DNA of 64,000 nucleotides from a virus: the IMG/VR virus record IMGVR_UViG_3300033146_004128, positions 123,665 to 187,664 of that record; one strand, given 5' to 3'. The position numbers and the translations under genes were made by a program. The notes beneath the pieces are model-generated. The model did no database searches. It worked only from the letters and a program-made list of their open reading frames with translations, and had not been told where the DNA came from. Position 1 is the first letter of the stretch. Every line of letters starts with the position of its first letter. This document shows positions 6,846-58,392 of the stretch, piece after piece.

Positions 6846-7803
6846 TGCACTAAGCGATATAGATATGGCTGTTCTTAAGAGTAAGATAGAAGAGATAGAT
6901 GGGGCAGCTCACAGACTTGAGAAAGTCGCATCTCTTCCGTTGGATGACAGAAATGATTTAACGAAGGAAGCGTTTGCTTGGCCTGAGGAAAAATTGTTTC
7001 CTATATACTCTCCTGCTCACGCTCTTGTTTCAAGCGTATACCTTGAAGGGAACGATGATGTTCCCGGATTTGTGAAAGAAGCGTGCGAAGAAGCATGTGC
7101 TTTGTTTGGTATGGACGTCCAGATAGGGGCACTTGAGAAAATAGCATCTACACCAGATGAGCTAGAGGCATCGGATTTCCTAATGCCGGCAGCAAGAAAA
7201 TTGCCTGTTGTTGATAAGGATACATTCAGAATGTCTGCAAGCGTACTTGAGAAGGTAGCTTCAGACCTAACTGGTGATGATCTAATCATAGCCAATAGAC
7301 AACTTGTGAAGAAAGCAAGAGACCTTGGAGAGGATGTTTCTGACGAAGCATTGTCACTAGGGTTATATGGAACGATTGATGCCATAGGGGCCAGAAGCAC
7401 GCTTCATGAGCGTACTCTTATTACCGGTGATGAAAGATATGAAAAAGTCGCATCAGACATTAGTGGAGACACAGTGTACTCCGTTGAGAAGGTAGCCTCT
7501 ATAGTTATGGATGTTCTATCCTTAGATGAAGAGCATGGGCTTGACAAAACAGCAAAAGAAGCAATTCTTGAGCTAGTTAACCCAGGAGAAGTTTCAGAAG
7601 TCTTTGAGATTGGAGCAGAGGAAATTCCTGTAGACAAAATAGCATCGATTGATGCTGAGGACTGGGTAGATGTACTGCCTAGGTCTATTGTCGAAGGGAT
7701 GTTTAGTGATGGATATTTAGATACTAGTATCCTGAGAGAGATTACGGACAATGCTAGCCCCGAAGAGAAAGAGGCTATAGCAATGTTTGTTAATAAAATT
7801 TAA
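6835..7803 (+). CDS. K-x-A repeat protein (head/internal protein candidate)
   Basis: A 322-residue acidic, helical protein. I chose ATG 6835 because AGAAGGAGGA sits just before it; an upstream TTG at 6781 has no ribosome binding site. The motif [LVY]-x-K-[VTIE]-A-[SF] recurs about nine times (LEKVAS, LTKEAF, FVKEAC, LEKIAS, LEKVAS, YEKVAS, VEKVAS, LDKTAK, VDKIAS), each at the end of a predicted helix of about 25-40 residues. Such spacing fits a protein cut into small pieces by the head protease, as known for T4-type internal and scaffold proteins. Membership of the head operon supports this. No named family is recognised. Confidence 0.75.
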   Translation: MLVDALSDIDMAVLKSKIEEIDGAAHRLEKVASLPLDDRNDLTKEAFAWPEEKLFPIYSPAHALVSSVYLEGNDDVPGFVKEACEEACALFGMDVQIGALEKIASTPDELEASDFLMPAARKLPVVDKDTFRMSASVLEKVASDLTGDDLIIANRQLVKKARDLGEDVSDEALSLGLYGTIDAIGARSTLHERTLITGDERYEKVASDISGDTVYSVEKVASIVMDVLSLDEEHGLDKTAKEAILELVNPGEVSEVFEIGAEEIPVDKIASIDAEDWVDVLPRSIVEGMFSDGYLDTSILREITDNASPEEKEAIAMFVNKI

Positions 7804-7815
7804 AAGGATCTTATT

Positions 7816-8073
7816 ATGGCAGTAATGCTTGATTACAGAAAAGGAACTGAGCATAGTTTGTCACCATTTTTTGGGGCAGGAACAGCGAAGCCGATTGACT
7901 GGATACACAGAGAAGAAGGCGAGAAGACTACAGCCGCAGGTCTTGTAGATGGAGCCGACGGGATAGATAATGCTACCTCCGGGACCACTGCCGTACTTAG
8001 TGCGCAGATTTCAGGGATAGCTGGGTATACAAAATACCAAGGTCAAATAACCATGGTCGAAATACCATTATAG
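7816..8073 (+). CDS. Small structural protein (unknown)
   Basis: An 85-residue protein with ribosome binding site AAAAGGATC. It is rich in Gly, Ala and Thr and has no membrane segment. It lies among head genes and is closely followed by another small Gly/Ser-rich gene. Possibly a minor virion protein. Confidence 0.55.
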   Translation: MAVMLDYRKGTEHSLSPFFGAGTAKPIDWIHREEGEKTTAAGLVDGADGIDNATSGTTAVLSAQISGIAGYTKYQGQITMVEIPL

Positions 8074-39751: not shown

Positions 39752-41494
39752 TTATAATATGCCAAGGGCAAACTTTGCCCTATCCGAACGTATGTCTTTG
39801 GTGTCTTCTTTCTTTCCAAATAGAAGCCCCTCAGTCAATCCTTTTTTTATGCCCCTGTAGTTTATCTGTTGCCACATAGACTTACCTGTCATTGGTCTTT
39901 GCTCATATGTCTTAAAGACTGGTTGATAGTCAAGAGGACCATGAGACACCTTTACTGACCCAACACCATTTCTCTTCAGGTATCCTGCAACTTTTTTAGT
40001 TATCTGCTTTCCTGGGCTGAAATGTAGAGCTGGCTCAGCAAGGTACTTTTTTGTTATCTGCTTGTCTCCAGTGCTCATAATTTTCATATGTGTTCCTGCC
40101 AATGTAGGAACAAAGCTATCGAATGTCTTTAAATCCGTGTTGGACTTATCGCTTTTAGCCTTAACCAGATTTAGATATCCACGACTAACAACTTCAAAGT
40201 TTCTCTTATCTATAGTACCATTATTTGCCTTATCAAGAGCATCAACAAGATACTTTCTTCCCTCTACTATTCCTCTGTGGTTTACTATATCCTTTGTTGA
40301 GGCAAGTCCATTTGTTACAATGTCCCCACGATCAACCATAGCCCCCACTGCAACAGTTGGAGCCACATGGTGAGATGTCGCATGATCAACTCCTCCAATA
40401 TTTATGTTGTACCCACCGGTTGTGAGTTTACTTATAGAATTTACCTTGCCACCAATAGTAGCTACTGTTGCCTTCCCATTGAACTTGTCTGTAGAGTTTA
40501 ATAGTATCTTGGCTGCCTGGAACCCAGAAGGTATCTTCGATGCAGTCTTTCCAGCAACGTTATGCTTTGCACTTAGTATCAACTGTGTAGACTTCTCTGA
40601 TAATCCTTGTGCGGCTTCTATACCAACATTGTGCCCAATAGTAGGCAAGCTTCCACTTGAATTCTTCCCCATGCACATTGCGCATACGCCATGTTTTGAT
40701 TGGCACGTTATTGGAGATCTTACTTTTATCTTCTTCTTGCCCATAGCTCTAAGTGTCTTCAGATACTGCTCGGTGACAAGTTTATTAGTCCCTGCTTCGT
40801 ATCTACTTAGAGCATCATTACCATCTGTAGGAACAACTATTCCATTCTTTGTTCCGCAGTCTTTCTGGTCTATCTTTACATCTTCGGCATTAGCAATAAG
40901 TACTTTTCCCATTGCTCCAGGCTCAGATGTAGATACAGCTGCCTGAACCGCTGCAAACCTTGCTTGCCCTCCAGAGGCATACTGCTCGTGAGAATTTAGT
41001 CCTGCTGCAAGACTATTTTTTATCATAAAAGGATATGGTTCAGAGTTCATATCTACTGCATACACAACACCACCGGTTATTCTTGATGCAGTGGAAGGAT
41101 TTCCCCTTCCTTTTGACTTTGCTTGAGAAACGAGATTGTTTCCATCATTAACCATTACCATTTCTTGCGTCTTGTTAAAAACATTGATGAGATGCGATTT
41201 CGCCTTCTCTTTGCTCATTCCGTTAAGCTTATTGCCTTCACGATGAAGCATATCATCAATACTTTTCTTGTTCTTTAGTGAGAACTCTGCAGGTCCCATG
41301 TTGTGACCATTTAGATACGCAAGCTCTTCTCCGAGCTCACGTATCTTGTGTATCTTGGAAGCATACATTGCTGGATACTTCTGTGCGTACACAGATAATT
41401 TTGCATTTATCTTGGGCTTAGTCAATGGAGTATCTGACTGGCTGAACTGTATGTCTTTCGGCATAAGCTTGTTTAGCTCAAAGATAGCATCCAT
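39752..41494 (-). CDS. RNA polymerase beta-prime C-terminal-half homologue
   Basis: A 580-residue protein. Residues 119-230 align by eye with the bacterial beta-prime bridge-helix region: GLNSHEQYASGGQARFAAVQ against GLNVxxYFxSTHGARKGxxD, then KIDQKDCGTKNGI against the DCGTxEGI site. All four cysteines of the C-terminal zinc site are present (C213, C264, C271, C274 in CQSKHGVCAMCMG). GHNVGIEAAQGLSEKSTQL (288-305) followed by SAKHNVAG matches the trigger loop, including its catalytic His (H311). The N-terminal half with NADFDGD is absent here. It could be half of a split phage polymerase or a virion protein that reuses the fold. It lies between an unknown structural gene and the holin. Confidence 0.8.
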   Translation of the reverse strand: MDAIFELNKLMPKDIQFSQSDTPLTKPKINAKLSVYAQKYPAMYASKIHKIRELGEELAYLNGHNMGPAEFSLKNKKSIDDMLHREGNKLNGMSKEKAKSHLINVFNKTQEMVMVNDGNNLVSQAKSKGRGNPSTASRITGGVVYAVDMNSEPYPFMIKNSLAAGLNSHEQYASGGQARFAAVQAAVSTSEPGAMGKVLIANAEDVKIDQKDCGTKNGIVVPTDGNDALSRYEAGTNKLVTEQYLKTLRAMGKKKIKVRSPITCQSKHGVCAMCMGKNSSGSLPTIGHNVGIEAAQGLSEKSTQLILSAKHNVAGKTASKIPSGFQAAKILLNSTDKFNGKATVATIGGKVNSISKLTTGGYNINIGGVDHATSHHVAPTVAVGAMVDRGDIVTNGLASTKDIVNHRGIVEGRKYLVDALDKANNGTIDKRNFEVVSRGYLNLVKAKSDKSNTDLKTFDSFVPTLAGTHMKIMSTGDKQITKKYLAEPALHFSPGKQITKKVAGYLKRNGVGSVKVSHGPLDYQPVFKTYEQRPMTGKSMWQQINYRGIKKGLTEGLLFGKKEDTKDIRSDRAKFALGIL

Positions 41495-41509
41495 AATTTA
41501 GTCCCAGCC

Positions 41510-42052
41510 TTATGCGTAAGTTGCTTCTAGCTGTGTTCTCTTGCTAGTAACGATTGTCTTGAATTGTGCAAGCGCAGTAATTGTTGTCTCTACTGTATGT
41601 GTAGGGCTATACTTCAACTTGTCGATTCTTTCTCTCTCGATTATCTTAGGGTCTCTTGCTACCATTGTACCTGTACCGTCGTCTTCTTCAATAGGAACTA
41701 CAAGTGTCGAAACATTTGGAATTATATATTGAGTATAGAACTCTGATTTTGGGTTGTAATCAAAAGATATGATCCCACTTATAGTAGGTGTCATGTTCCA
41801 TGCATACTTTCCAGCCACTGAATTTACAGAAAATCTAACATCAGCAATTCCGCTGTCAGCTGTAGCTATATCCTCAATATCAGAAAGTGCATTTGCTGCT
41901 TCTGTTACCTTTGAAACAATATTGTCTATCTCGTTCTCCATGCAAGTAAGTCTACATATACTTAACTGTACGTCTGCCAATGGATCTGGCTCCCATAGTG
42001 TTACATTACATTTTTCTAAGTCTGCCTGAATCTGCTCATAATTTGTTGCCAT
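41510..42052 (-). CDS. Structural protein of unknown function
   Basis: A 180-residue protein with a strong ribosome binding site (CAGGAGAACAC). An N-terminal helical part with two cysteines is followed by a beta-rich middle (YNPKSEFYTQYIIPNVSTL) and a C-terminal helix. A TATAAT (42083-42078 on the minus strand) sits about 25 bases upstream, but no -35 is clear. Probably well expressed; role unknown. Confidence 0.6.
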   Translation of the reverse strand: MATNYEQIQADLEKCNVTLWEPDPLADVQLSICRLTCMENEIDNIVSKVTEAANALSDIEDIATADSGIADVRFSVNSVAGKYAWNMTPTISGIISFDYNPKSEFYTQYIIPNVSTLVVPIEEDDGTGTMVARDPKIIERERIDKLKYSPTHTVETTITALAQFKTIVTSKRTQLEATYA

Positions 42053-49163: not shown

Positions 49164-49772
49164 TTATCCTGAGAAGACTGTAAAGTCTTGGTCTTCACTA
49201 TTCTGAATTTCTAGGTGTAGCTCATCGATTTTAGCATTCAATGTAGCAAACTCTGCGTTAAGTTTTGAATCAACATCTTCAAGAACTATCTCTTTGATAG
49301 TATACTGTATTCCCTTTGATCTTAGGTTGATAGAAGGGTTAGATATGTAGATACCATAGTTACCTGCCGTGTTGATTGTAAGCTCTATAGAATAGATACC
49401 AGTATTCCCAACTTGCGTAAGAGTATCACCATACCCTATTCCTTCAGATATTGGGAATTTAGTGTAGATAACATCACCTACAACCTTCTCAACATAGTAC
49501 TTGTTTCCATTAGCATCCTCAAATACCATACCGTCAGAGATTCCTCCACCAGACTGTACTGTGATTTGCTTTGTCCCTGCTGCCGCTGCTGCATCAACTG
49601 TAGATTCTGCAGGAGAAGCAATAGTCTCAACTATTTCAACTCCATCATTTGCTGCTTGAGTAATTGTACCATCTACAAGGTTTACTACCTTGGTGGTAAA
49701 ACCAGATGCACCGAAAAACTTCTGGTGGCTATTTAGTTCTAGAAAGAACGGGGTTCCCATTTTCTTTATCAT
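49164..49772 (-). CDS. Beta-rich tail-fibre-region protein (unknown)
   Basis: A 202-residue protein with ribosome binding site AAGGAAAAT. Residues 1-150 are strands with many Gly/Thr/Val (TVDAAAAAGTKQITVQSGGG). The C-terminal 40 residues form a coiled coil (LNAEFATLNAKIDELHLEIQ), which suits a trimeric fibre or baseplate part. Confidence 0.6.
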   Translation of the reverse strand: MIKKMGTPFFLELNSHQKFFGASGFTTKVVNLVDGTITQAANDGVEIVETIASPAESTVDAAAAAGTKQITVQSGGGISDGMVFEDANGNKYYVEKVVGDVIYTKFPISEGIGYGDTLTQVGNTGIYSIELTINTAGNYGIYISNPSINLRSKGIQYTIKEIVLEDVDSKLNAEFATLNAKIDELHLEIQNSEDQDFTVFSG

Positions 49773-54620: not shown

Positions 54621-54649
54621 ATTATAGCTACATTGTCCATGCATGTAAA
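54621..54649 (-). promoter_or_regulatory. Sigma-70-like promoter of the small basic gene
   Basis: On the minus strand TTTACA (54649-54644), 17 bases and TATAAT (54626-54621), inside GCTATAATATTGG, which is shared exactly with the promoter at 38776-38788. Confidence 0.65.
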
Positions 54650-54651
54650 GA

Positions 54652-54690
54652 TGTAAAAACTGCGTAAAAACGGGTATATACTATGTAGGA
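54652..54690 (+). promoter_or_regulatory. Repeated promoter-like element, copy 1
   Basis: TGTAAAAA at 54652, then CGGGTATATACTATGTAGGA at 54671-54690, 19 bases start to start. The 20-base block recurs exactly at 55086-55105 with the same upstream octamer at the same distance. TATACT with the octamer as upstream box suggests a phage early or middle promoter. It lies before the MazG-like gene. Confidence 0.6.
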
Positions 54691-54776
54691 GATTATATCT
54701 TCTCTTTCTGTGCCGATCTGGATCATACATAAGTATTTGATGATCTGAATTAGTCCAAGGCAGAAAGGAGGCATCC

Positions 54777-55010
54777 ATGATGACAGTTGAGCAGCACGAC
54801 ATGATGCGTATGTCGTCAGAGCTTGCAGAACTACAACAAGCTCTAGGAAAGGCTATTCAGTTTGGAGCTGATGATGCTAATCCTGATACAGGCGAAAACA
54901 ACATGGACGCTATACAGAGAGAGATGCTTGACGTCTTATATTTTTGTAAGCGACTTGGTATCAGGGGTGGTATCTATATAGCGTCTATAAGGGGAAAACT
55001 GAGTAATTAA
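54777..55010 (+). CDS. MazG-like nucleotide pyrophosphohydrolase
   Basis: A 77-residue protein with the MazG/all-alpha NTP-PPase signature. E15 and E18 lie in SSELAELQQALGKAIQFG, and E49 and D52 in REMLDVLYFCKRL; these acids bind magnesium. The RFGxDD-like spacer is present as QFGADDANPDTGENN. It would hydrolyse nucleoside triphosphates or alarmones and shift host nucleotide pools. Shorter than typical MazG domains (about 100), so perhaps a minimal form. Ribosome binding site AAAGGAGGC. Confidence 0.75.
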   Translation: MMTVEQHDMMRMSSELAELQQALGKAIQFGADDANPDTGENNMDAIQREMLDVLYFCKRLGIRGGIYIASIRGKLSN

Positions 55011-55066
55011 ACACTCTATTTTGCCCTCAAATACCCCTAAAATAGCCCAAATACCCCCTAAAAAGG

Positions 55067-55105
55067 TGTAAAAATGGCCGTTTTTCGGGTATATACTATG
55101 TAGGA
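55067..55105 (+). promoter_or_regulatory. Repeated promoter-like element, copy 2
   Basis: TGTAAAAA at 55067 and CGGGTATATACTATGTAGGA at 55086-55105, as in copy 1 at 54652-54690. An AAAAATGGCCGTTTTT hairpin lies between the two boxes. It precedes the small membrane protein gene at 55213 and is the nearest upstream promoter for the structured RNA region. Confidence 0.6.
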
Positions 55106-55212
55106 CTATATATCTTACATTTCTTCCCTAAGTAGATAGCTAAGCACCGCATCTATAGGGGATACTGATATGGGAAACCGTATTGGAAACAGCTACCTTT
55201 AAGGAGGATTCA

Positions 55213-55485
55213 ATGGCAAACAAAAACTCATTTAACTTCAAGACTATTCACTTGGCGGCAGTCATCACTGCCCTAATTTTCTCATTCGCTGCAGGCTTTG
55301 TATTTGGAGATGACAACGGATACCACAGGGGATATCATAAGGGTGAAAGTCTCGGTGAAGAACTAGGCATTGTAAAAGGACAGTTAAGTGTCCATACAAT
55401 GTGGGAAACAGCTACTCAGTCCGGAAGTAAAAAGCCGGTAAAAGAAGCTGTTGAGCTAATAGAAACGTATGTCTACAAGATATAA
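55213..55485 (+). CDS. Small membrane protein (unknown)
   Basis: A 90-residue protein starting behind TTTAAGGAGGATTCA. One membrane segment (LAAVITALIFSFAAGFVFG, about 14-32) is followed by a soluble His/Gly-rich then helical part (YHRGYHKGESLGEELG). Likely inner-membrane with its C-terminus outside. Early gene of unknown role. Confidence 0.65.
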   Translation: MANKNSFNFKTIHLAAVITALIFSFAAGFVFGDDNGYHRGYHKGESLGEELGIVKGQLSVHTMWETATQSGSKKPVKEAVELIETYVYKI

Positions 55486-55584
55486 GTTTGTTGCTGCCTG
55501 TCCTAAACATATAGCGAATTTTAGCATATGCAAGGAAACGTATTCTGGAAACAGAGTACACACAAATCACTTAGGAGGTGAACC

Positions 55585-55737
55585 ATGCTTAGAACTATAA
55601 AAGATTACGACAAAATCGTTAAAAAAATGTCATCGGCGCAAGCGAGTAAAGTAACTCAAGAAGAGAGAAGCTTTGTGGAGAGAATACGCAGGGTTGCGAT
55701 GAACAACCCTGACGTCGCCAGAGAGTTCTCTCGATAA
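55585..55737 (+). CDS. 50-residue protein (unknown)
   Basis: ATG behind TTAGGAGGTGAACC, a near-perfect ribosome binding site. The product is a short basic helical protein (KDYDKIVKKMSSAQASK; RSFVERIRRVAMNNP). The last gene before the 1.45 kb gene-free region. Confidence 0.6.
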   Translation: MLRTIKDYDKIVKKMSSAQASKVTQEERSFVERIRRVAMNNPDVAREFSR

Positions 55738-57190
55738 TGGCGTGAGTAGTGTGGTTGTATGTTCTGGGGTCGCACCCCATCCGAGAGGACCTAAACATTC
55801 CGTTCCTGATGAGACGAGAGAATCAGGGCAGTTGGAGCTGCTACCTTCCACTTAGAATATTATTAAGTTATCAAACAGATAGCTTATCGTGTTCTTCTTG
55901 CCTGAGATGGCATACATTCTACAGGAAATGAACTGTAGTACGGCGATTGAAGCCGGGTCGAGTGGAGAGTAATCCTCCTTGACTGATATGCCATGGAGGC
56001 ATAATCTATTGAATCTCCTTCAAAGGGGGCATGGTCTTTTTCTTTTACCATGTGTTAGGTCATTTTCGTTATTAAAAAAAAGAAATATGAGAGTGGGATT
56101 ACTCCTCTCTCTTCCTGGTGCATAGTAGGAGTATATACGTGCCAGGACCAGTGAAACTGGATACCACATTTACGAGCTGAACTAATCGTATCTAAGTGCA
56201 ACAATAGTCGATTTATGAGGCTGCATGTGTTCAGATGTGCAGAGCAACTCAGAGAGAGATCTCGTGGAGTAGCAGCGCCGTGGGTTGGACGTAGGGTGGT
56301 TCCACGGCAGAGAGAGTAGTACAGCGACCTCGTAAGAGAGTGTACAGTTTGGGTGTGAGTCCCATGTTCTAGTGCCAGGTCAAAGAGCAAAATCCTGGCA
56401 ATCCGTAGCAAGACTGCGGAGCAATCAACATGGTGCCATTCCATGCTCTGTACCGCCCATCCTGGCGGTTTATAAATATGGGTCAACGTAGTGGTGCTAC
56501 GGATGAAGTAACGAGAATTAACCACTCTCACATTAGGAACAAGCTTCCCTCACTTATACGTTGAGGTCTGTGTCGCTAGGTGCACTGTAAAGCTCAAATA
56601 CCAAGCTATGTCTATCAGAATAGACAGAAGACAACACATAACAATGTGCTCTGCAACGCAGCCTTAACAGGAGCCGAACTGCGGTATATAAATCAAAATA
56701 GGTCGAGAAGGTATTGACGCTTAAGCGATAGGTCAGTATGGGTCCAACAACGATCTGAAACTCGTATAAAACCAGTCCTCTCATGAGGGCAAGACCATGA
56801 GTGCTTAATGGAGCATTGATGAACTTGCAAGCCTAGCTGGGCTTAAAACGGAGCGCCTACAGTCTATGTGTAGATGAAGCCTATCGTTGGATAGGAAGTG
56901 TTCTCTTGAATGGTGTAGCATAGTCTGCCGAGAGAGAAGGCTCTACATAGCCGGAAGGACCCGGAAGTTAAACCTGCTTGCAGGAGGCGAGCTCACCCTG
57001 AGTATAACTGGCAGTTGTCTTTCATGCAGGATCCGAGCCTAACACCACAGCTTGTGGGAGGCGTTGAAGGTTGTAAAGAATAGCTACCTTAGAGCGAAAA
57101 AGCAAAGGCGGACAGAATTGATCAGCTGTCTAGTGCGAAAATTTTGATCATATAGCACCTAAGAATTGGGCTGCAACACTGGGAGGTGTA
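55738..57190 (+). ncRNA. Large structured noncoding RNA region
   Basis: No plausible gene on either strand for about 1.45 kb: only short frames without ribosome binding sites. The sequence is visibly richer in G+C than its surroundings (bases 56221-56280 hold 33 G/C of 60). It is full of perfect hairpins on the plus strand. Examples are TGGGGT/ACCCCA near 55764, GCCGTGG/CCACGGC (56277/56302), TGCCAGG/CCTGGCA (56373/56394), ACCGCC/GGCGGT (56452/56464), TGTCTAT/ATAGACA (56609/56620) and CCTATC/GATAGG with a GTTG loop (56880/56890). Two long-range helices close domains: TGAGAGTGG/CCACTCTCA (56088/56522) and TAGGTGC/GCACCTA (56577/57155). Size, phage origin and tRNAs 2.4 kb away recall the GOLLD and ROOL giant RNAs, but I cannot confirm membership. 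Confidence 0.65.
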
Positions 57191-57192
57191 TA

Positions 57193-57342
57193 ATGTTTAA
57201 CGGACAATTTTTTAACGGACTATCCATCGCAACAGACAATCCTATGATGATTAAAGATGGGGCTGTGAGATTAGATATTCCAAAGAGCGAGACAGTCAGA
57301 CACTTGATGATGGGTTGGTCTTTCTGGAAAAGAAATGTGTAA
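57193..57342 (+). CDS. 49-residue protein (unknown)
   Basis: ATG at 57193 behind GGGAGGTGTATA, directly after the structured RNA region. The product has a strand-rich start and a final amphipathic segment (HLMMGWSFWKRNV). It overlaps the next small gene by 8 bases. Confidence 0.5.
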   Translation: MFNGQFFNGLSIATDNPMMIKDGAVRLDIPKSETVRHLMMGWSFWKRNV

Positions 57343-57463
57343 GAAGTTCAACGCTGATAAAGCGATGGATAAGGTAGAGTTGTACCTGCTTGCAGGTATG
57401 AAGTATAGTGCTGGGCTGCTTATAGCAGGTCAGGCGATTATGGGAATAATGTCCCTGATCTAA
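57335..57463 (+). CDS. 42-residue hydrophobic protein (unknown)
   Basis: ATG at 57335 with GGAAAAG just before it, inside the end of the previous small gene. After a charged start, LAGMKYSAGLLIAGQAIMGIM forms a hydrophobic helix. Possibly a small membrane peptide. Confidence 0.45.
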   Translation: MCKKFNADKAMDKVELYLLAGMKYSAGLLIAGQAIMGIMSLI

Positions 57464-57472
57464 AAAGGATAT

Positions 57473-57658
57473 GTGGTGAAGGTTTATCACAAGAAAAAGT
57501 TACTCATTGAAGTAACAAAAGCTGATGCGTCTGCGTTCATACGCATTGCAAAGGCGAAAGGTGGTCGAGTAAAATTCGACGACAACTCAGTTACAATACA
57601 AAATGCTGTTGCCTTAAAGGTAGCAGAGGAAGAGTTTTGGGAACTTACCGACCCATAG
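57473..57658 (+). CDS. 61-residue protein (unknown)
   Basis: A GTG start at 57473 (a second GTG follows directly) behind AAAAAGGATAT. The product has a basic first half with beta strands and an acidic helical end (ALKVAEEEFWEL). No family recognised. Confidence 0.55.
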   Translation: MVKVYHKKKLLIEVTKADASAFIRIAKAKGGRVKFDDNSVTIQNAVALKVAEEEFWELTDP

Positions 57659-57660
57659 AA

Positions 57661-57760
57661 TGTGCCGAGCCAGGGCCTAAAGCAAGCTTTCCATTCATGC
57701 CTAGGGCAGATGAGACTTAACCGTCTTGTCTGACCTGGGCTTGGTGGTTGAATTTTTTTT
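57661..57760 (+). ncRNA. Compact structured RNA ending in a U-run (small RNA or terminator)
   Basis: A 10-bp outer helix with one bulge (57665-57674 with 57734-57744) encloses a 9-bp inner hairpin AGATGAGAC/GTCTTGTCT (57708-57716 with 57723-57731, loop TTAACC) and further short pairings. Eight T follow at 57753-57760. It could be an elaborate intrinsic terminator for the upstream transcript or a separate processed small RNA. Confidence 0.6.
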
Positions 57761-57822
57761 AGATTACGTTTTTGGACACCTAAGAAATGGTCCATTTAAC
57801 AAGCAATGACAAAGGAGAAACT

Positions 57823-58392
57823 ATGTCAGAACCAATGAATTACAATATATCAAGTGAGCTCGTGTCGGCTTCAAGCGCACTAAATATGCACGTGGAAGAG
57901 GTCGCTTCAGGAAAGTCTATAGCCGAGTCTTCATACTCTGCTAACCACGCAGTGGAGCACATAAGGGCAGCTATACAGCTTTGCGACGACAAAGATGCGG
58001 TCTCTAGTTTTGCCTACGCTGCGAACAACCTTCTTGAGGACGCAGGACTGGAAATAACTCCGCATGAGAGCATCATAAATATGTACTTTGAAATCATGAC
58101 TGCTGTAAGAGGCATGCTTGAAGTGTCAATAAAAATGCTTGACTTAGAGTATTTGTATGACGGTAGAGATGGGATGGATGTCTTCTTAACAGATGTAGAT
58201 CCAACAGCAGAACTGTGTGTAAAGACATTATCACTAGCAATAGATGAGGTTGGTGTTGCACGCAGACTTCTGTGGAGGGCACGCCTTGTAGTGGACAGAA
58301 GAATGGCTCTAGAGAATGGTTGGGACAAGCTATCATCATCCCGTTGGGAAAGCTTTGACAGGGTAGCAAGAAGAGCAGAGGAAAAAATGTAA
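57823..58392 (+). CDS. Early-region protein of unknown function
   Basis: A 189-residue helical protein. The ATG at 57823 follows AAAGGAGAAACT. It is acidic in the first 150 residues and basic at the end (ARRLLWRARLVVDRRM). No motif. Its stop TAATG is coupled to the next start. Confidence 0.65.
   Translation: MSEPMNYNISSELVSASSALNMHVEEVASGKSIAESSYSANHAVEHIRAAIQLCDDKDAVSSFAYAANNLLEDAGLEITPHESIINMYFEIMTAVRGMLEVSIKMLDLEYLYDGRDGMDVFLTDVDPTAELCVKTLSLAIDEVGVARRLLWRARLVVDRRMALENGWDKLSSSRWESFDRVARRAEEKM

Follow-up and report, generated by a model that had tools for sequence, protein, structure and literature searches.

A large conserved structured RNA behind a candidate phage promoter in an RNA-polymerase-encoding phage

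The window, i.e. the whole stretch of 64,000 nucleotides analysed here, comprises bases 123665-187664 of a 187,664-base IMG/VR record of a large uncultured phage (G000) and carries the gene for a part of a multi-subunit RNA polymerase at 39752-41494 on the minus strand. By protein comparison the nearest named phages are the Vibrio phages D69, D148 and D181 and the Salmonella phage Arash, all of them distant (~30% identity). The 1,455 bases at 55738-57192, flanked by a 50-aa ORF (55585-55737, plus strand) and by a 49-aa ORF whose first base is 57193, contain no credible gene; they hold a densely structured non-coding RNA on the plus strand. This region had been described in a sequence-only reading as gene-poor, rich in G+C and hairpins and close to three tRNA genes. 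The first three features were borne out, as no ORF in 55738-57192 passed a codon-usage test, the G+C content of the RNA is 0.46-0.48 against ~0.40 nearby, and many hairpins are predicted at a probability > 0.9. The three tRNAs are real, yet they are located 2.4-2.8 kb away on the opposite strand; they are the only Rfam 15 matches within the window. Two more stretches of low coding score (~1.2 kb) were noticed in G000, at L210:6729-7938 and L213:2162-3356; they are not GC-rich and could be small ORFs.

A homologous RNA of 1,534 bases was found in IMGVR_UViG_3300028490_000007 (G001), a phage reached via its RNA polymerase subunit (76% identical protein) and in which one tRNA was found. It occupies the equivalent place, between the homologues of the 50-aa ORF and of the 49- and 42-aa ORFs. 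The G001 DNA aligns with window positions 56766-56854 and 56856-57198 at 80% identity, interrupted by ~510 additional G001 bases, and with positions 56115-56163 at 86% identity. The translated-frame similarity of the two regions is spread over many frames of both strands, as DNA conservation gives, and the alignment gaps include 1, 2, 4, 5, 11, 16, 25 and 29 bases. No extended reading frame conserved across the region, a finding that would have spoken against an RNA, was detected in the translated frames of the window RNA and G001. The insertions that differ between the two phages, together with a 158-aa open frame on the minus strand (56055-56531), could be read as a mobile intron, a remnant gene or a chance structure. 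This reading is extremely improbable, as there is neither a conserved frame nor a match to the catalytic cores of group I or II introns in the Rfam models, and it is contradicted by the strong covariation presented below. The same tool does recognize such introns in Vibrio phage D181, namely three of group I (L020:3807-4014, 7604-7884 and 49164-49365), two of them adjoining annotated homing endonuclease genes.

The window RNA folds at -477.9 kcal/mol, below its dinucleotide-shuffled controls (-438.6 +/- 9.8 for 40 shuffles, z -4.0), compared to a z of -2.4 for its minus strand and of -2.0 and -2.4 for two coding stretches of equal length taken as controls. The G001 homologue by itself gave z -8.4 on the plus strand and -5.1 on the minus strand. 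For the consensus fold of the two RNAs, a sequence-only alignment was used from which the lineage-specific insertions were left out, and the shuffles preserved local conservation classes. The consensus energy was -193.0 versus -123.6 +/- 8.3 after shuffling (z -8.4, reached by none of 60 shuffles). The reverse strand gave a weaker value (z -6.1), and the plus strand is therefore favoured. By segment, z was -6.0 for the 5' domain, -6.9 for the middle domain and -5.6 for domain C (0 of 150 shuffles each), and merely -2.0 for the 3' core, as this core hardly varies.

In addition, 24 helices were matched between the two phages by position and flanking sequence in a structure-guided alignment made by eye. 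Their 139 cells include 35 double changes that keep the pairing, 10 single changes and 6 broken pairs, several of the latter stemming from one pseudoknot arm that was mis-located in the window sequence. When the 3' arm was slid by up to 4 bases as a control, only 0-5 double changes were counted versus 35. The shuffle tests, based on the sequence-only alignment, are free of the by-eye bias of this list of helices. Since only two homologous sequences are known, all this covariation amounts to one comparison. Loop features, namely a 17-base loop, a GNRA loop and a CUUG loop, are retained between G000 and G001 while the stems change. The comparison thus shows that the predicted fold of most local helices has been kept by compensatory changes between the two phages, and we regard it as almost certain that the region encodes a conserved structured RNA.

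The RNA can be divided into several parts, all on the plus strand. According to the fold and the comparison with G001, the hairpins at the 5' end (55738-55845), e.g. TGGGGTCGCACCCCA, occur in the window phage only. They are followed by the 5' domain (55846-56112), whose hairpins at 55854-55895, 55919-55938, 55941-55955, 55956-55984 and 56015-56028 each covary with a counterpart in G001. A hairpin with the conserved 17-base loop (56113-56121/56139-56147) and a CCAGT/ACTGG hairpin make up the next element (56113-56160), which is 84% identical in G001 and carries two double compensatory changes. The middle domain (56161-56451) contains hairpins at 56221-56242, 56252-56263, 56373-56400, 56403-56419 and 56429-56445, all covarying, and the GNRA loop of the second is GAGA in the window and GCAA in G001. 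A lineage-specific structured insertion (56452-56703), mostly missing in G001, separates this domain from domain C (56704-56854; 78% identity), which has hairpins at 56775-56790, 56800-56817 and 56831-56842 and contains GCCTAGCTGGGCTTAAAACGGAGC, present also in two other related phages, G005 and G002. The structured insertion of ~510 bases of G001 falls at 56854-56856 in the DNA comparison (RNA positions 690-1197 on the reverse complement of L007); it is highly structured and is predicted to form long helices with the conserved 3' core. This core (56855-57180) is 80% identical to G001, contains AAAGAATAGCTACCTTA and may form a pseudoknot, in which GACAG (57111-57115) would pair with CTGTC (57126-57130) and the loop TGATCA (57119-57124) with TGATCA at 57145-57150. 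The architecture is hence modular: the 3' core is conserved (80%), the 5' half covaries, and each lineage has insertions of its own, ~250 nt in the window and ~510 nt in G001. A small pseudoknot-like motif, CGCCnAGCTGGGCGTAAAACGnAGC, occurs at window position 56831 and at L245:9807(-), L221:2577 and 3496, and L249:530(-); it lies within the giant RNA in G000 and G001 but behind ORFs in G005 and G002.

Two long-range helices had been proposed to close domains of 443 and 585 bases. Their arms are present in the sequence, as TGAGAGTGG (56088-56096) and CCACTCTCA (56522-56530) for the first and as TAGGTGC (56577-56583) and GCACCTA (57155-57161) for the second. Both helices are nevertheless absent from the minimum-energy structure, and the relative lends them no support, since the arms at 56522 and 56577 lie in the insertion that is confined to the window, so that nothing speaks for domains of 443 and 585 bases. 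With the supported helices being mostly local hairpins and the long-range closing helices left without covariation support, the region could also be an array of independent small RNAs, or a decoy or sponge whose hairpin loops titrate host or defence factors. The order and spacing of the modules are however kept in G001, and no tandem repeat of one hairpin was evident in the sequences as read by eye, which makes such an array or decoy rather improbable. Given the small ORFs that flank the region in the same orientation, it may still comprise two or three separate RNAs.

The RNA unit probably begins before 55738. A promoter-like block, AAAAATGGCCGTTTTTCGGGTATATACTAT, is found at 55070-55099 on the plus strand and recurs in related phages. 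With 90% identity in G001, the 129 bases around it are better conserved than any other non-coding stretch near the locus, tRNAs excepted. The block is followed by a hairpin of 7 pairs, TGTAGGA-CTATATA-TCTTACA (55099-55119), which is the same in G001 and is the probable 5' end of the transcript; in G005 and G007, a further related phage, hairpins of 6 and 7 pairs with another sequence stand in its place. G001 has this type of block too, G005 has it ahead of the syntenic operon, and in G007 it immediately precedes a giant RNA. The pattern AAAAATnnnnTTTT..GG..TATATA..TATG, behind which a short hairpin often stands, was recognized in G000, G001, G002, G004, G005 and G007, with copies in the window (55070-55119 and 54647-54709) and at L245:10749(-) and 11603(-), L221:1954, L244:18436, L249:2168(-), and L229:13905 and 9211. 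A motif unique to the RNA locus is ruled out by the copies elsewhere in the phages; this recurrence points to a recurrent phage promoter class, probably that of a phage polymerase. G005 (L221:2050-2125) and G002 (L249:260-320(-)) share a 5'-UTR element, GGTTTCATAGCCTAAAACTTT, ahead of different small ORFs.

Transcription from the block at 55070 would yield one unit together with a few small ORFs. A 90-aa ORF from ATG (55213-55485, plus strand) lies inside the putative transcript, was not found in G001 and has no Pfam match. The G001 homologue of the 50-aa ORF is found at the equivalent position (38% over 37 aa). Downstream, three small ORFs of 49, 42 and 61 aa (57193-57658, plus strand) have G001 homologues in the same order; an apparent G005 homologue of the 61-aa ORF was recognized by reading, below the tblastn threshold. 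Protein searches with the flanking small ORFs revealed no function. After the 61-aa ORF, a conserved element of ~95 bases (57667-57762, plus strand; 84% in G001) ends in a T run and is possibly a terminator or a small RNA, and transcription might extend to the T run near 57762.

The conserved small ORFs on both sides have the same orientation as the RNA and good ribosome-binding sites, so that the region could lie between cistrons of one mRNA. The main rival explanation is accordingly that a structured leader or intercistronic region of great length controls translation of the flanking small ORFs or their stability, for example through pairing with GGGAGGTG, the ribosome-binding site of the 49-aa ORF (57182-57189); CACCT at 57156-57160 is able to pair with AGGTG at this next ribosome-binding site. 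The syntenic region of G005, which contains small ORFs with hairpins between them, fits such a role as well; it is neither a long non-coding gap nor the site of a homologous giant RNA. Against a regulatory mRNA region stand the length of 1.4 kb and the more than 20 conserved helices, as to our knowledge no known leader approaches these dimensions, and also the RNA unit of G007, which is without an ORF and is seemingly closed off from the tRNA by a terminator-like hairpin and a separate sigma-70 promoter. We therefore consider a regulatory mRNA region unlikely, and it is rather probable that the RNA works in trans as an RNA of its own and not merely as the leader of small ORFs.

The G007 phage (IMGVR_UViG_3300026484_000402) has a polymerase subunit 53% identical to that of the window phage and a genome G+C content of 0.29. 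Its giant RNA, of ~1.15 kb (L244:18466-19640), lies directly behind the promoter-like block and has no ORF of coding character. The G+C content of this RNA is ~50% (0.45-0.59 in 400-base windows) versus 29% for the genome, and 1,000 bases of it fold at -411.8 against -330.9 +/- 8.3 after shuffling (z -9.8). Behind it are a perfect sigma-70 promoter, separate from the block, and a tRNA-Ser(GCT), seemingly preceded by a terminator-like hairpin. The RNA has no match in Rfam or in phages, and no sequence similarity between it and the window RNA could be detected. The best match of the domain-C covariance model in 60 kb lies inside the G007 RNA, although it is weak (E 0.0016, with rough calibration); the other two covariance models did not match this RNA, and homology to the window RNA is thus merely suggested. 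Both RNAs occur in related phages, share the type of block and leader hairpin, lack ORFs and fold very strongly, the one of G007 adjoining a tRNA. G007 seems to produce an RNA of this kind as a free-standing molecule, from a promoter of the same type.

The region 54800-58000 was compared to Rfam 15 with permissive filters and no match was obtained at E <= 10. In particular, neither the GOLLD (RF02032) nor the ROOL (RF03087) covariance model matched G000 or G001 at this threshold. The ROOL control gave a signal in no genome searched, and the ROOL search alone is therefore no proof. RF01998, considered as a GOLLD model, is actually a group II intron model. GOLLD is a phage RNA of >800 nt with tRNA genes nearby and a conserved 3' and a variable 5' region (PMC12286853). 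The window RNA resembles it in size, in its phage location, in the presence of tRNAs within 3 kb and in its conserved 3' and variable 5' parts, which could speak for a divergent GOLLD or ROOL member missed by the Rfam models; it differs in lacking a model match, in having its tRNAs on the opposite strand at a distance of 2.4 kb and in being directly flanked by conserved small ORFs. ROOL, too, is a giant structured RNA of phages that lies near tRNAs and has no known function, but the window RNA does not match its model and is about twice as long as the 574 positions of the latter. OLE, a large ornate RNA working as an RNA-based complex (PMC12286853), is encoded by bacterial chromosomes, in contrast to the viral window RNA, which has no Rfam match. 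Because Rfam 15 was silent and the family models were unmatched, membership in GOLLD or ROOL was rejected, and a divergent member of either is very unlikely. Of the proposal of a giant structured phage RNA, either of a new class or related to GOLLD and ROOL, the first part stands on the two-genome covariation, the synteny and the lack of coding, and the second does not. Judged by its sequence, the window RNA, as a long non-coding RNA with covariation-supported secondary structure, is of the same kind as GOLLD and ROOL and belongs to a new family outside Rfam 15.

The RNA turned up in none of the 50,697 phage records and none of the 72,556 plasmids searched. Beyond G000 and G001, nothing credible was obtained by blastn among 32 records of the clade, nor among 56 phage records with two covariance models, R1 built on the 3' core and R2 on domain C; R1 matched only G000 and G001. 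The failure of the core models to match other phages of the clade suggests an accessory element, unless the RNA has diverged beyond recognition. Besides G001, the matches of the IMG/VR pattern scan were chance matches inside genes, a superoxide-dismutase-like gene in L009 and the protein motif SLPIE in L195, and a blastn match in G010 (L185) falls in an RNA polymerase beta gene. A GC-rich stretch of 1.5 kb in G004 proved to be an ordinary tRNA array with eight tRNA genes (L232:1540-2711). The flank of its Ser(GCT) gene matches the tRNA flank behind the G007 giant RNA, the RNA itself being absent there. A GC-rich stretch of G008, with recombinase- and transposase-like genes, looks like an ordinary transposon.

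Few giant ornate RNAs are known, GOLLD and ROOL being the phage examples. The reading we favour, and hold to be probable, takes the region as the gene of a giant structured phage RNA that is non-coding, transcribed as a unit driven by the block and acting as RNA, likely as a scaffold or particle similar to GOLLD and ROOL. By analogy with these, it would be a self-folding scaffold or particle abundant during infection, whose conserved 3' core stays while peripheral domains are gained and lost. Both GOLLD and ROOL form RNA-only nanocages whose purpose is not known (PMC12286853), and an oligomeric particle of this type is a tentative possibility for the window RNA. Equally tentatively, phages of this RNA-polymerase-encoding clade may have a dedicated giant-RNA locus, driven by a phage promoter, where ornate RNAs of 1-1.5 kb that are either unrelated or hyper-diverged take one another's place; these would represent one or more further scaffold or cage classes, separate from GOLLD and ROOL, whose modules are gained and lost as protein domains are. 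If so, with one family in another phage group that shows no sequence relationship, and a second in a relative, phages would have acquired giant RNAs repeatedly, new objects would be available for cryo-EM and functional tests, and Rfam-based catalogues would overlook giant RNAs of uncultured phages. In the Salmonella phage Arash, unannotated gaps of ~0.9-1.0 kb were noticed near the PAAR spike gene, at L021:38752-39657 and 40541-41538.
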